A stretch of DNA of 64,000 nucleotides from Lachnospiraceae bacterium (GTDB lineage Bacteria; Bacillota; Clostridia; Lachnospirales; Lachnospiraceae): assembly GCA_015057025.1 (NCBI GenBank), contig SVFD01000001.1, positions 620,001 to 684,000 on the forward strand, read 5' to 3'. How positions within the stretch are numbered: the stretch's first letter is position 1; each line of letters begins with the position of its first letter. The notes beneath the pieces are model-generated. The model was not told the DNA's origin, did not search any database, and saw only the letters and a program-made list of their open reading frames with translations. Position numbers and translations under genes: made by a program. Positions 53,924 to 57,624 of this stretch are shown in pieces.

Positions 53924-54376
53924 TTATCTAAACAAGAAATTATCCCCAATCACATCGGTGCATTTCTCTTCGCAATACTTGCATCTGTAGTTGCCCTTTG
54001 CCTCATCACCTAAAATAAAGATATGAGGAAGCTCCTGTTCGATGGAAGTAATACAACGGGGATTCTTGCAACGGAAGATGTTCTTAACTTCCTTGGGAAG
54101 TGTAAGTTCCTGCTTTGCAACGATTTCGCCCCCCTTGATTACGTTTACGGTAATGTTGTGGTCGATTACGGCAAGCACGTCCATATCCATTTCTTCAATA
54201 TCACATTCTACTTTAAGAATGTCTTTCTTGCCCATTTTATCGCTTTTAGCATTTTTGATAATTGCTACGGTGCAATCTTTTTTATCCAACTGTAAGTGGT
54301 GGTAGATAGAAAGACTTTTTCCGGCCTTAATGTGGTCCAGTACGAATCCTTCTTCAATCTGTCCTATATTAAGCAT
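53924..54376 (-). CDS. pyrI: Aspartate carbamoyltransferase regulatory subunit
   Basis: 150 residues. N-terminal allosteric nucleotide-binding domain (IEEGFVLDHIKAGKSLSIYHHL) and a C-terminal zinc domain with four cysteines (FRCKNPRC, YRCKYCEEKC). It gives CTP/ATP control to PyrB in pyrimidine synthesis. GGAGGAT precedes the ATG. It is downstream of pyrB on the same strand, separated by 219 bases that contain a structured repeat. Confidence 0.95.
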   Translation of the reverse strand: MLNIGQIEEGFVLDHIKAGKSLSIYHHLQLDKKDCTVAIIKNAKSDKMGKKDILKVECDIEEMDMDVLAVIDHNITVNVIKGGEIVAKQELTLPKEVKNIFRCKNPRCITSIEQELPHIFILGDEAKGNYRCKYCEEKCTDVIGDNFLFR

Positions 54377-54442
54377 ATTATCCTCCTCTAACTAAAATCA
54401 AATTGATTTTATATATTGAGTTCATTAATGTAAGCTACGTAA

Positions 54443-54585
54443 TTTGCCCTGAAAGAATATATTTCCTACGCAGGGTACTGGAGAGCCGTCGGCATTTGGA
54501 TTCTGTATTTTAGAATCCTATGTGCCGTTACGTGCGATACGTAGCGAGAGCATGCCCTAGTGGAAATATATCCATCCGGGGCAAA
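54443..54585 (+). repeat. Structured ~140 bp repeat, copy 1
   Basis: The whole stretch between pyrB and pyrI folds as one branched hairpin. Outer helices: TTTGCCCTG (54443-54451)/CGGGGCAAA (54577-54585) with one wobble, ATATATTTCC (54457-54466)/GGAAATATAT (54562-54571), AGGG/CCCT. Inner core: CGGCA/TGCCG around GGATTCT-GTATTTT-AGAATCC (about 54490-54532). The core matches copy 2 at 56.2 kb over about 50 bases, while the outer helix has another sequence yet still pairs. The strand is given for the GGATTC orientation; the flanking genes run on the opposite strand. Confidence 0.75.
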
Positions 54586-54595
54586 TATCAGAAAA

Positions 54596-55510
54596 CTAAA
54601 CTTCAATCTCAAGCAGTGTAAGAATCAATGCCATACGAGCGTATACGCCGTACTGTACCTGCTTAAAGTACGCTGCTCTGGGGTCTTCGTCAACTTCTAC
54701 GGAAATTTCGTTTACACGGGGAAGGGGATGGAGAACCAACATATCTTCCTTGCCGAGAGCCATTTTTTCCTTGTTCAAAATGTAAAAGTCTTTCAAACGA
54801 ACATAATCTTCTTCGTTGAAGAAACGTTCTCTCTGAACACGTGTCATGTAGAGAATGTCCAATTCGGGCATAACTTCTTCCAAACGGATTACTTCCTTGT
54901 AGGGAATGTTCTTTTCTTTTAACATTTCAATGATATAATCGGGAATTTTTAATTCTTCCGGAGAAATAAATACAAAAGAAATATTGTCATAACGCTCAAG
55001 CGCATGAATCAGTGAGTGAACGGTACGACCGAATTTCAAGTCGCCGCACAGACCAATGGTAAAATTGTTAAGACGTCCTTTTAAGGAACGAATCGTAAGT
55101 AAATCAGTAAGTGTCTGAGTCGGATGCTGATGTCCGCCGTCACCTGCGTTTACAACGGGAATACGTGACTTGGAAGCAGCTACCATGGGAGCACCTTCCT
55201 TGGGGTGACGCATTGCGCAGATGTCCGCATAGCAGGAAATCATACGAATGGTATCGGATACGCTTTCGCCCTTAGATGCGGAACAACAGCTTGCATCTGA
55301 GAAACCGATTACGTGACCGCCTAAATTAATCATTGCAGCTTCAAAACTTAAACGTGTTCTGGTGCTGGGCTCATAAAAGCAGGTGGCAAGCTTCTTACCA
55401 TCGCAAGCATGAGCATACTTTTTCGGGTTTGTCTCTATATCGTTTGCCAAATTGAACAGCTTGTCCAATTCTTCAACGGTAAAATCGAGAGGACTCATTA
55501 AATGTCTCAT
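54596..55510 (-). CDS. pyrB: Aspartate carbamoyltransferase catalytic subunit
   Basis: 304 residues. Carbamoyl-phosphate loop [13 protein letters not shown] (about residue 49-61), [26 protein letters not shown] and HPLPRVNEI are intact. It condenses carbamoyl phosphate and aspartate, the committed step to UMP. GGAAGGAG precedes the ATG. It has a sigma-A promoter on the minus strand at 55547-55575. No attenuator was recognised between promoter and gene. Confidence 0.97.
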
Positions 55511-55546
55511 AATTGACTCCTTCCATATATGTTTTCAACTTGAATA

Positions 55547-55575
55547 ATATTACCACAATGAAGTTGTGCATTCAA
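55547..55575 (-). promoter_or_regulatory. Promoter of pyrB
   Basis: On the minus strand TTGAAT (55575-55570) and TAATAT (55552-55547) with a 17-base spacer. Confidence 0.7.
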
Positions 55576-55580
55576 GATAA

Positions 55581-55622
55581 TCTGACAAAAAAATACCATT
55601 TTAAATTGCAGTTTTTGTCAGA
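55581..55622. repeat. Inverted repeat in the divergent promoter region
   Basis: TCTGACAAAAA (55581-55591) and TTTTTGTCAGA (55612-55622), perfect 11-base arms around 20 bases. It lies upstream of the pyrB promoter and overlaps the spacer of the plus-strand promoter, so it could be an operator for one or both. Confidence 0.55.
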
Positions 55623-55634
55623 TAAGGATATAAT
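55606..55634 (+). promoter_or_regulatory. Promoter of the PH-domain gene
   Basis: TTGCAG (55606-55611) and TATAAT (55629-55634) with a 17-base spacer, about 50 bases before the start codon. Confidence 0.75.
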
Positions 55635-55684
55635 ATAAAAGATGATATAATACGTGTATTTTTTCCTATAAGGAGGTAAAGAAC

Positions 55685-56071
55685 ATGGATACTGAAACAA
55701 ATCAGATGATTGAAAAGAAACGCTGGGGATTTTTTGGATTACCCTTTACTTTTACCACATATAACATAAAAGAAGATGTGCTTACTATTGACAGCGGTTT
55801 CTTTAAAAAGGTGCAGAATGATTGCTATATGTATAAAATTCAGGACGTTGTTTTGGAGAGAGGCTTTTTCCAGAGATGGTTTAAGCTTGGTAACGTATCC
55901 TGCTATACAGGCGATAACACTCATCCTACTTTGATTCTAAAGAATATCAAACATGCACAGGAAGTGAAAGACTTTATTCTGAAATATTCCGAAGATGCAC
56001 GCCTTAAGAGACGTACCGTAAATACCTTAAACATCGGTACGGGCGATATGGACGACGTGGATATGTTATAG
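55685..56071 (+). CDS. PH-domain (bacterial PH-like) protein
   Basis: 128 residues. Residues 10-105 resemble the bacterial PH-like domain (KKRWGFFGLPFTFTTYNIKEDVLTIDSGFFKKVQNDCYMYKIQDVVLERGFFQRWFKLGNV); no membrane segment is seen. Such proteins are often linked to envelope functions, but this one is not characterised. AAGGAGG lies 7 bases before the ATG. Its role next to pyrB and folate genes is unknown. Confidence 0.7.
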   Translation: MDTETNQMIEKKRWGFFGLPFTFTTYNIKEDVLTIDSGFFKKVQNDCYMYKIQDVVLERGFFQRWFKLGNVSCYTGDNTHPTLILKNIKHAQEVKDFILKYSEDARLKRRTVNTLNIGTGDMDDVDML

Positions 56072-56175
56072 TCAATCGTTTTTTGGTGGAAGAGATTTTA
56101 TCATGCACATATTGCTTGATAATTGAGTTTGTTTGCAGGTAGATGAAAGGCCTGTTCAGTTGTACGATTATATTG

Positions 56176-56308
56176 GGAGTGTGGAAACTTTTTCATACGC
56201 GGGTGCTGTGAGTCCGTCGGTACTTGGATTCCGTATTTTGGAATCCTATGTACCGTTACGTGACGAGGGCAGCGAAAGCGTGCCCGCATTGAAAAGTTTC
56301 CACACTCC
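56176..56308 (+). repeat. Structured ~135 bp repeat, copy 2
   Basis: Branched hairpin between the PH-domain gene and folC. Outer arm GGAGTGTGGAAACTTTTTCA (56176-56195) pairs with TGAAAAGTTTCCACACTCC (56290-56308) over 19 pairs with one bulge; next GCGGG/CCCGC. Core: CGGTA/TACCG around GGATTCC-GTATTTT-GGAATCC (about 56217-56256). Relative to copy 1 the C-G to T-A and T-A to C-G changes in the core stems are compensated on the other arm. Confidence 0.75.
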
Positions 56309-56331
56309 TTATAACCGAAAAGGAGCCCCCT

Positions 56332-57624
56332 ATGAAGTACGAAGAAGCCATGGAGTATATGGAATGTAAAGTGAATAAGTTAGGCAGCGTACCGGGTTTG
56401 GATTCTATCCGGGAATTGTTGAAACGCCTGGAAAATCCACAGGACGAATTGACTTTTATCCATGTGGCGGGTACTAACGGAAAAGGCTCTGTATCTACGC
56501 TGATTGCCAATGCATTAACAGCTAACGGATACAAGGTGGGACGCTATATTTCACCTGTAATCAATGATTATCGTGAGCGTATTCAGATAAATAACCGTAT
56601 GATTTCAAAAACGGCAGTTGCGGAGAAGTTATCTGTTTTATTTGAAATCTGTAGTGATATGGAGAAGGAAGGTCTGGCACATCCTACTGCTTTTGAAATT
56701 GAAACTGCTCTTGGATTTTTGTATTTCCGGGACAAGCAGTGTGATTTTGTAGTGTTGGAAACCGGTATGGGAGGTACTTTGGATGCTACCAATATTATAA
56801 AAAATACAAAGCTTTGCATTTTTACCTCTATCAGCAAGGATCACATGGCATTTCTGGGAAATACTTTAGCAGAGATTGCGCTAAATAAGGCAGGTATCCT
56901 TAAAAGCGGCTGTAAGGCAGTATCCGCGCCGCAAACTGAAGAAGTGATGTCGGTACTGCAAAATGCCTGTAAAGCCCAAAATATATCGTTTACGGCGGTT
57001 TTGGGGGCGGATATTAAAACCGGCAGACAAAGTCTTAAAGGTCAGAAGGTATCTTACAAGGATTATAAGCAAATGGAAATTCCTTTGCTTGGAAGCTTTC
57101 AGATTGAAAATGCCGTACTTGCTATGGAAGCATTACTGGTTTTACAGGGAAGCGGTGTCAAATTAAAAGAAGAGAAAATTCGTAAAGGTTTCATGGAATC
57201 TATATGGCCGGCTCGTTTTGAAATTTTATCAAAAAAACCATACGTGATAGCAGATGGTGCCCACAATGAGGATGCCGTAAAAAAACTCATGGAAACCATG
57301 CGTTTCTATTTTACAAATCATCGGATTATTTATATAATGGGAGTATTAAAGGATAAAAATTACGCGTCCATGATTGAAGAGTCGGCATCCATGGCAGAAT
57401 ATATTTTTACGGTGACGCCACCGAATAAGGAGAGAGCGTTACCGGCCTTTGAGTTAGCCAAGGAGATAAAAGAATATAATTCAAATGTAACAGCCGCGGA
57501 TTCTGTAGAAGAAGCATTGGAAATGGCAAAACTTATGGCAGGAGAGGACGGCGTTGTGCTGGCATTCGGTTCCTTGTCATACATGGGAAAGTTGAGAGCG
57601 TGTTTTGAAAATAAAAAGTCGTAA
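56332..57624 (+). CDS. folC: Folylpolyglutamate synthase/dihydrofolate synthase
   Basis: 430 residues, Mur-ligase fold. P-loop [13 protein letters not shown] (about residue 43-55), [16 protein letters not shown] (about 141), [26 protein letters not shown] (about 166) and DGAHNEDA (about 305) are all intact. It adds glutamate to dihydropteroate and extends folate polyglutamates. AAAAGGAG precedes the ATG. First gene of the folate operon folC-folE-HD-folP-folBK. Confidence 0.95.

Follow-up and report, generated by a model that had tools for sequence, protein, structure and literature searches.

We conclude that two segments of the window (the whole 64,000-nucleotide stretch of Lachnospiraceae bacterium DNA analysed here) probably belong to a short, non-autonomous, MITE-like foldback family, as resident copies that have probably lost their mobility. 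Such elements occur in many genera of a single bacterial family. By most named records this host family is the Lachnospiraceae. The family of small mobile hairpin elements with one folded core is apparently undescribed so far; no description of it was found in the open-access papers searched, and one may exist elsewhere.

Both segments lie on the + strand in the same orientation, as the first-pass annotation had reported, and the paired core-stem differences that it described are present. The shared motif occurs twice in the window when up to three mismatches are allowed, compared to 0.06 expected. The gene neighbourhood had also been read correctly: copy 1 is located antisense between pyrB (54596-55510, - strand) and pyrI (53924-54376, - strand), and copy 2 in sense between an ORF with a bacterial PH domain (55685-56071, + strand) and a folC-type Mur ligase gene (56332-57624, + strand). 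Both were scored with R1, a covariance model made from 13 aligned copies of the 39 of the own genome. The parts of the two copies are the following:

54442-54586, + strand: copy 1, whole element including core and outer arms, antisense relative to pyrB-pyrI; R1 97.4 bits, E 2.8e-23; fold z -4.5
54442-54469, + strand: copy 1, 5′ outer arm, paired with 54560-54586 with small loops (predicted helices)
54560-54586, + strand: copy 1, 3′ outer arm (predicted helices)
54472-54558, + strand: copy 1, conserved core (alignment and fold)
54472-54477 with 54553-54558, + strand: copy 1, closing helix of the core (fold)
54491-54495 with 54522-54526, + strand: copy 1, core stem, with the apical stem at 54498-54518 (fold)
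54543-54551, + strand: copy 1, AGC-GAGA-GC hairpin with GNRA loop (sequence and consensus; the fold of the lone sequence pairs part of it differently)
56165-56317, + strand: copy 2, whole element, sense, just 5′ of the folC-type gene; R1 98.9 bits, E 1.1e-23; fold z -8.8
56175-56195, + strand: copy 2, 5′ outer arm, paired with 56290-56309 (18 + 2 bp helix)
56290-56309, + strand: copy 2, 3′ outer arm (predicted helices)
56199-56287, + strand: copy 2, conserved core (alignment and fold)
56199-56204 with 56282-56287, + strand: copy 2, closing helix of the core (fold)
56215-56223 with 56250-56260, + strand: copy 2, core stem, with the apical stem at 56226-56246 (fold)
56271-56279, + strand: copy 2, AGC-GAAA-GC hairpin with GNRA loop (sequence and consensus; the fold of the lone sequence pairs part of it differently)

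The predicted fold energies were -61.3 kcal/mol for copy 1 and -76.6 kcal/mol for copy 2, and in both cases none of 200 shuffles was as good. The outer helices had been said to differ in sequence and still to pair, which they do: that of copy 1 is interrupted (10 + 1 + 10 + 2 bp with small loops between), while that of copy 2 consists of 18 + 2 bp (main arm 56175-56309) with further short helices outside. The outermost paired parts of both copies are their own arms, and no ORF of at least 80 amino acids is confined to either copy. By eye, the sequences upstream of folC in genomes G001, G006 and G020 (L122-L124) contain an obvious hairpin (CAGGCAG...CTGCCTG) with T's after it, of which the own genome keeps just a degenerate trace beside copy 2 (56130-56165).

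The shared motif was found at 12 places in the own genome with up to two mismatches and nowhere with the reversed control. R1 gave 39 matches there at E ≤1, the weakest with an E-value of 1.4e-6. When 41 genomes including the own were searched (E ≤0.01, strict filters), 24 had matches, namely the own genome and 23 of the 24 other genomes of its genus; none of the 16 genomes from 16 other families of the order had one under the same settings. Within the family the spread is patchy, with matches at E ≤1e-5 in at least 78 of 200 genomes and at least 77 of 199 genera; these are lower bounds, because the filters were strict and at most 18 candidates were scored per genome. Copy number in a single genus ranges from 0 to 51, and four genomes of the window's genus carry 39 (own), 51, 39 and 18 matches. 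A DNA-pattern scan of GTDB species genomes returned at least 118 stretches. R1 matches at E ≤0.1 were found in 77 of the 80 stretches listed (88 matches). By title, 69 of these 80 stretches are Lachnospiraceae or bear the names of genera that we take to belong to it; the remaining 11 are filed under different names, with a Muribaculaceae bin among them. Rfam release 15 has no family that reaches its gathering threshold on either copy, and the sole match at E ≤5 is a chance U6 hit outside both. The suggestion of a structured family is borne out by the many further copies. Pattern hits in viral contigs comprised 30 loci with six R1 matches at E ≤1, two of them strong (IMG/VR contigs L292, 7642-7760, and L282, 1192-1313; 75.6 and 74.7 bits); these two contigs, though classed as viral, may be either prophage or host DNA.

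What stays constant across the family is a core that has a three-way junction and carries a GNRA hairpin. In the consensus, a variable outer arm is followed by a short closing helix, a long arm and a short AGC-GNRA-GC hairpin. The long arm consists of a variable helix, then the conserved segment CG(T/C)-CGG(T/C)AC / GTACCG-(T/C)T-(A/G)CG, whose bulge has two bases, and finally an internal loop (TT vs TAT or TA) and a variable stem at the apex. In the alignment of 13 of the 39 own-genome copies, 81.1% of the cells pair compared to 69.7% in shuffles, and 93 cells are doubly changed compared to 35.6 in shuffles, a number that none of 500 shuffles reached. The outer helix is just 51.9% paired in this alignment, since the arms of different copies do not align. 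A cross-genus alignment was made from 78 matches at E ≤1e-8, out of the 88 at E ≤0.1 among the stretches listed, and was fitted to the covariance model. Here 92.8% of the cells pair, compared to 61.6% in shuffles and at most 48.3% with slid partners, and 1076 cells are doubly changed compared to 317; none of 500 shuffles reached either the paired or the doubly changed count. Paired substitutions therefore do covary, as had been proposed from the two window copies. The double changes occur in the outer arm, the closing helix, the long arm and the apical stem, while the stem of the GNRA hairpin is uninformative because it hardly varies. RNAalifold predicted 43 pairs of its own on the 78-copy alignment, 37 of which have double changes.

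To study strand preference, 131 copies from four genomes of the window's genus were kept of 146 regular-expression hits; 15 hits without the 5′ core motif were left out. This set differs from that of the R1 matches, and some G001 copies are left out of it. The element strand folded better than its complement in 97 copies and worse in 33. In the inner part, G-U pairs were found 201 times on the element strand and 67 times on the complement, so that the core looks selected either as RNA or as strand-specific single-stranded DNA. Across genera, inner G-U pairs likewise outnumber A-C pairs (89 vs 33), although 43 of the G-U pairs fall at one pair and 18 of the A-C pairs at another. A GNRA loop, in six different sequences, is present in 125 of 128 parsed copies of the genus (131 in all) and in all 78 cross-genus copies; such conservation points to RNA rather than DNA, given the rules of loop stability.

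Evidence for mobility comes from two other genera. Genome G211 has 11 copies of one unit at unrelated places, about 91-99.6% identical over most of the alignments. The units are 273-274 bp long with terminal inverted repeats GGTTCGGGTGTCAAAAGCC, and exact 7-bp target-site duplications flank 10 of the 13 units that have both ends, whereas none of 156 mispaired controls reached 6 bp. In G233 the units are mostly 200-290 bp long with terminal inverted repeats TAGGTAATTGCGAAAC; target-site duplications of 9-14 bp, with one mismatch allowed from 9 bp, were found in 18 of 27 units, and 3 of 702 mispaired controls reached 6 bp. Both kinds are non-coding and of MITE size. The same core is therefore carried by units that differ in their ends and in the length of their duplications; it was enclosed by all 22 distinct terminus pairs examined (16 by motif and six by reading the sequence). 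The earlier idea of a mobile palindromic repeat was therefore right in kind. One core shared under different termini and different duplications suggests non-autonomous foldback elements with a structured core under unrelated termini.

In the window's genus the elements have a different history. Direct repeats are not in excess there (58 of 131 copies at ≥7 bp vs 67.9 expected) and shared sites are common, which argues that the copies in this genus are old. Neither G001 nor G006 has an element at the pyrB-pyrI site, and in G020 the contig stops short of it. The folC site retains the 3′ half alone in G006 and nothing in G001 and G020. When R1 was applied to 43 pyrB and folC loci including the own, just the own loci matched. 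Conversely, the own genome is without the element that a relative has upstream of a ksgA-like gene, yet retains the 3′ arm; the gene beside this remnant is one that we take to be ksgA from its look. Loss by deletion is thus seen. Gain is shown as insertion by the duplications in the other genera, while for the window's genus, in which many copies are common to several species, we infer both gain and mobility.

A complete element is one long imperfect hairpin with terminal inverted repeats at its base, followed by paired arms whose sequence varies by copy or lineage and then by the constant core, with its three-way junction, conserved bulge, internal loop and GNRA hairpin. The elements would be moved by a transposase that recognises their termini and works in trans. 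The arms would need complementarity alone, and the core would be retained for an activity of its own, most likely as folded RNA of the GNRA-loop strand. Inserted copies would persist, diverge while keeping much of their pairing, and finally vanish by deletion. The core may either benefit the element or the host as RNA, or take part in recognition.

The core rather than the termini might be the constant mobile identity, a fold-recognised module of RNA or single-stranded DNA that rides on, or is able to recruit, different transposition systems, with arms that need only be complementary and are renewed for each copy. The arms are mostly unrelated between copies of one genome and are nevertheless paired (median of 31 enclosing pairs, range 19 to 91); in a few cases, such as the arm starting CAGCAAGGGG, the same arm occurs with more than one core type. 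We regard such a core-defined element as possible, though unlikely.

Mobility could also be secondary. The family might mainly be a vertically inherited functional RNA, or a cis-acting processing or stability element, that MITEs of other genera captured. The strong covariation, the GNRA loops and the strand bias of the inner G-U pairs would all fit, as would the many orthologous copies that species have in common (flank BLAST gave 61 candidate pairs in the four-genome set). However, orientation to the genes is not fixed: by simple ORF calling, 53 of the 131 copies are antisense and 36 sense between tandem genes, so readthrough from the genes would often yield the wrong strand. The patchy distribution over genera, the range in copy number within one genus and the complete mobile units in two genera speak against it as well, and we consider a mainly vertical origin fairly improbable.

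The pairing of the outer arms raises a further alternative, namely that covariation arises mainly from templated correction or recombination at the DNA level in palindromes, acting on inverted repeats that are otherwise ordinary and under no selection to fold. In the window's genus, outer-arm G-U pairs are few and show no strand bias (255 on the element strand vs 309 on the complement), so that arm pairing may be kept by such a process. Arms at orthologous places may differ between species and still pair, as in G000_16 and G001_72. Counts over 39 of the 61 candidate pairs, each read both ways, give more doubly changed Watson-Crick cells (204 in arms, 205 in cores) than one-sided G-U cells (79 in arms, 76 in cores), and 95 of 202 doubly changed cells are transversions. 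Changes that no longer pair were counted in the same 39 pairs, both one-sided (372 arm and 188 core cells) and both-sided without pairing (90 arm and 60 core cells), partly owing to misalignment. The one-sided losses of pairing and the missing strand bias of the outer arms weigh against our main reading. In an E. tayi copy one arm matches the other without a difference over 85 bp. On the other hand, such a process would erase the bulges, the internal loop and the GNRA loop that the core keeps; the inner G-U pairs are biased to one strand, and outer G-U pairs exceed A-C pairs across genera (32 vs 18). As the main source of the covariation, DNA-level correction therefore seems improbable to us.

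Copying of an arm from another locus was rejected for the 94-base E. tayi arm, the one arm searched: apart from itself it matched just its partner (100% over 85 bp) and the two arms of an apparent second element (77% and 75%). In L229, where the 5′ half of the core is like a reversed 3′ half, palindrome correction is the less likely reading: by eye, the two halves are not the same and look like 3′ halves from neighbouring types, which makes a fusion of two copies likelier.

Copies may also be nested, with the apical stem of one core running into the arm of another (L189 and L218). A complete core lies within the apical stem of an oppositely oriented core at L189 3198-3348 and 6147-6296 and at L218 2150-2750, and these hairpins hold two cores in line. 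L400 and L402 (G083) have the outer arm of L394-L398 but an apparently inverted core that encloses a further core; by eye, their interior looks flipped between the arms.

The first-pass annotation had also offered a terminator as a possible role. Bidirectional intrinsic terminators would explain why few copies lie in divergent gene pairs: simple ORF calling placed 26 of the 131 copies between convergent genes and seven between divergent genes, with nine unclassified, and seven copies overlap a long ORF. This scarcity is also as for elements tolerated at 3′ ends. In G211, 8 of 13 units lie near runs of at least six T or A compared to 1 of 13 farther out, but around the G233 units such runs are no commoner (2 of 23 close by and 4 of 23 farther out), so that a terminator preference is at best lineage-specific. 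A T-rich tract directly 3′ of the hairpin is present in just 7 of the 131 copies of the four same-genus genomes, and on the other strand in 26, and the terminator role did not hold up; we consider it very improbable.

Local GC skew gave no replication-strand bias (62 vs 69 of 131). The mean promoter score was 5.81 in the 5′ flank and 5.65 in the 3′ flank (p 0.002), a difference not used as evidence because the 5′ flank is more AT-rich (66% vs 61%). Several elements adjoin ORFs of a lipoprotein-like family with a similar N-terminal signal and lipobox, a divergent remainder and no Pfam match (L071 1761-2567 and 11102-11833, L072 2018-2836 and L085 1507-2235; C12, C13 and C6 of the own genome). 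Three of these four ORFs lie between an inverted element pair and the fourth just before an element; at the place of the C6 ORF, the matching G001 locus is about 860 bp shorter between flank and element. Among 14 pairs of copies less than 2 kb apart, counted by eye in the own genome (C12, C8 and C13), G001, G006 and G020, ten are in minus-plus order with their 5′ sides facing, one is plus-minus and three run in the same direction; some pairs are orthologous and hence not independent.

REP-type palindromes mobilised by a Y1/RAYT transposase would likewise be intergenic and often in inverted pairs. Y1_Tnp (PF01797) had no match in the own genome (97.9% complete), whereas the control search found it in 5 of 14 genomes, and target duplications of 7 or 9-14 bp are not known from Y1 transposition. 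The elements are also far longer than REPs, and we give this origin very little credence. For other enzymes, DDE_Tnp_1 had no match in G233, G211 and G196 and is present in 9 of 14 control genomes. No terminus pair enclosing an ORF was found in 30 G211 loci (of 71 motif matches), and none was recognised in 20 G233 stretches, where six ORFs near or between termini are host-type genes or lack a Pfam match. As these are draft genomes, a multi-copy insertion sequence could escape the transposase searches, which covered two Pfam families. That no transposase turned up counts against our main reading, as do the lack of a direct-repeat excess in the window's genus and the sharing of many copies there by several species. 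When read by eye, the core does not show the R-box consensus, and an integron attC site was set aside.

As mobile, non-autonomous foldback elements, the family resembles the bacterial MITEs, among which PMC3733652 lists RUP, NEMIS, ERIC, YPAL and EFAR: its members are short, non-coding and intergenic, have terminal inverted repeats, fold back on themselves, are flanked by target-site duplications and are probably moved in trans. With REPs, as treated in that paper, which of the literature found comes closest in style, they share intergenic palindromes, frequent inverted pairs and rarity between divergent genes. The paper gives the GTAG- and CGTC-tagged REP palindromes as 20-40 bp long and the CGTC repeats as likewise without a known transposase, whereas the elements described here are 110-290 bp long with a multi-helix core and a three-way junction (PMC3733652). 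Some copies of the own genus, though not all, end in CGTCC after the arm, which establishes no sequence family with REPs.

Unlike the listed MITEs, the members of this family share a covarying core with a GNRA hairpin even though termini and duplication lengths differ. To our knowledge no such shared core exists in the RUP, NEMIS, ERIC, YPAL or EFAR families. The pneumococcal BOX, RUP and SPRITE repeats are reportedly interspersed, structured and probably transcribed repeats of a Firmicute, and are similar by description alone. Covarying secondary structure and a GNRA tetraloop are also features of Rfam structured RNAs, from which the family differs in having no match in release 15.

For the Lachnospiraceae, elements that go unannotated can mislead genome assembly, the prediction of terminators and the search for new RNAs, and the family is a large natural data set on how long palindromes keep their arms complementary. 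A core that outlasts changes of termini and duplication length is unusual. If the core-defined reading were true, the identity of this bacterial mobile element would lie in a folded core and not in terminal sequences or a protein gene. One covarying core in up to 51 copies per genome, in many genera and under unrelated ends, may represent either a new class of functional RNA carried on MITEs or a new mode of recognition.
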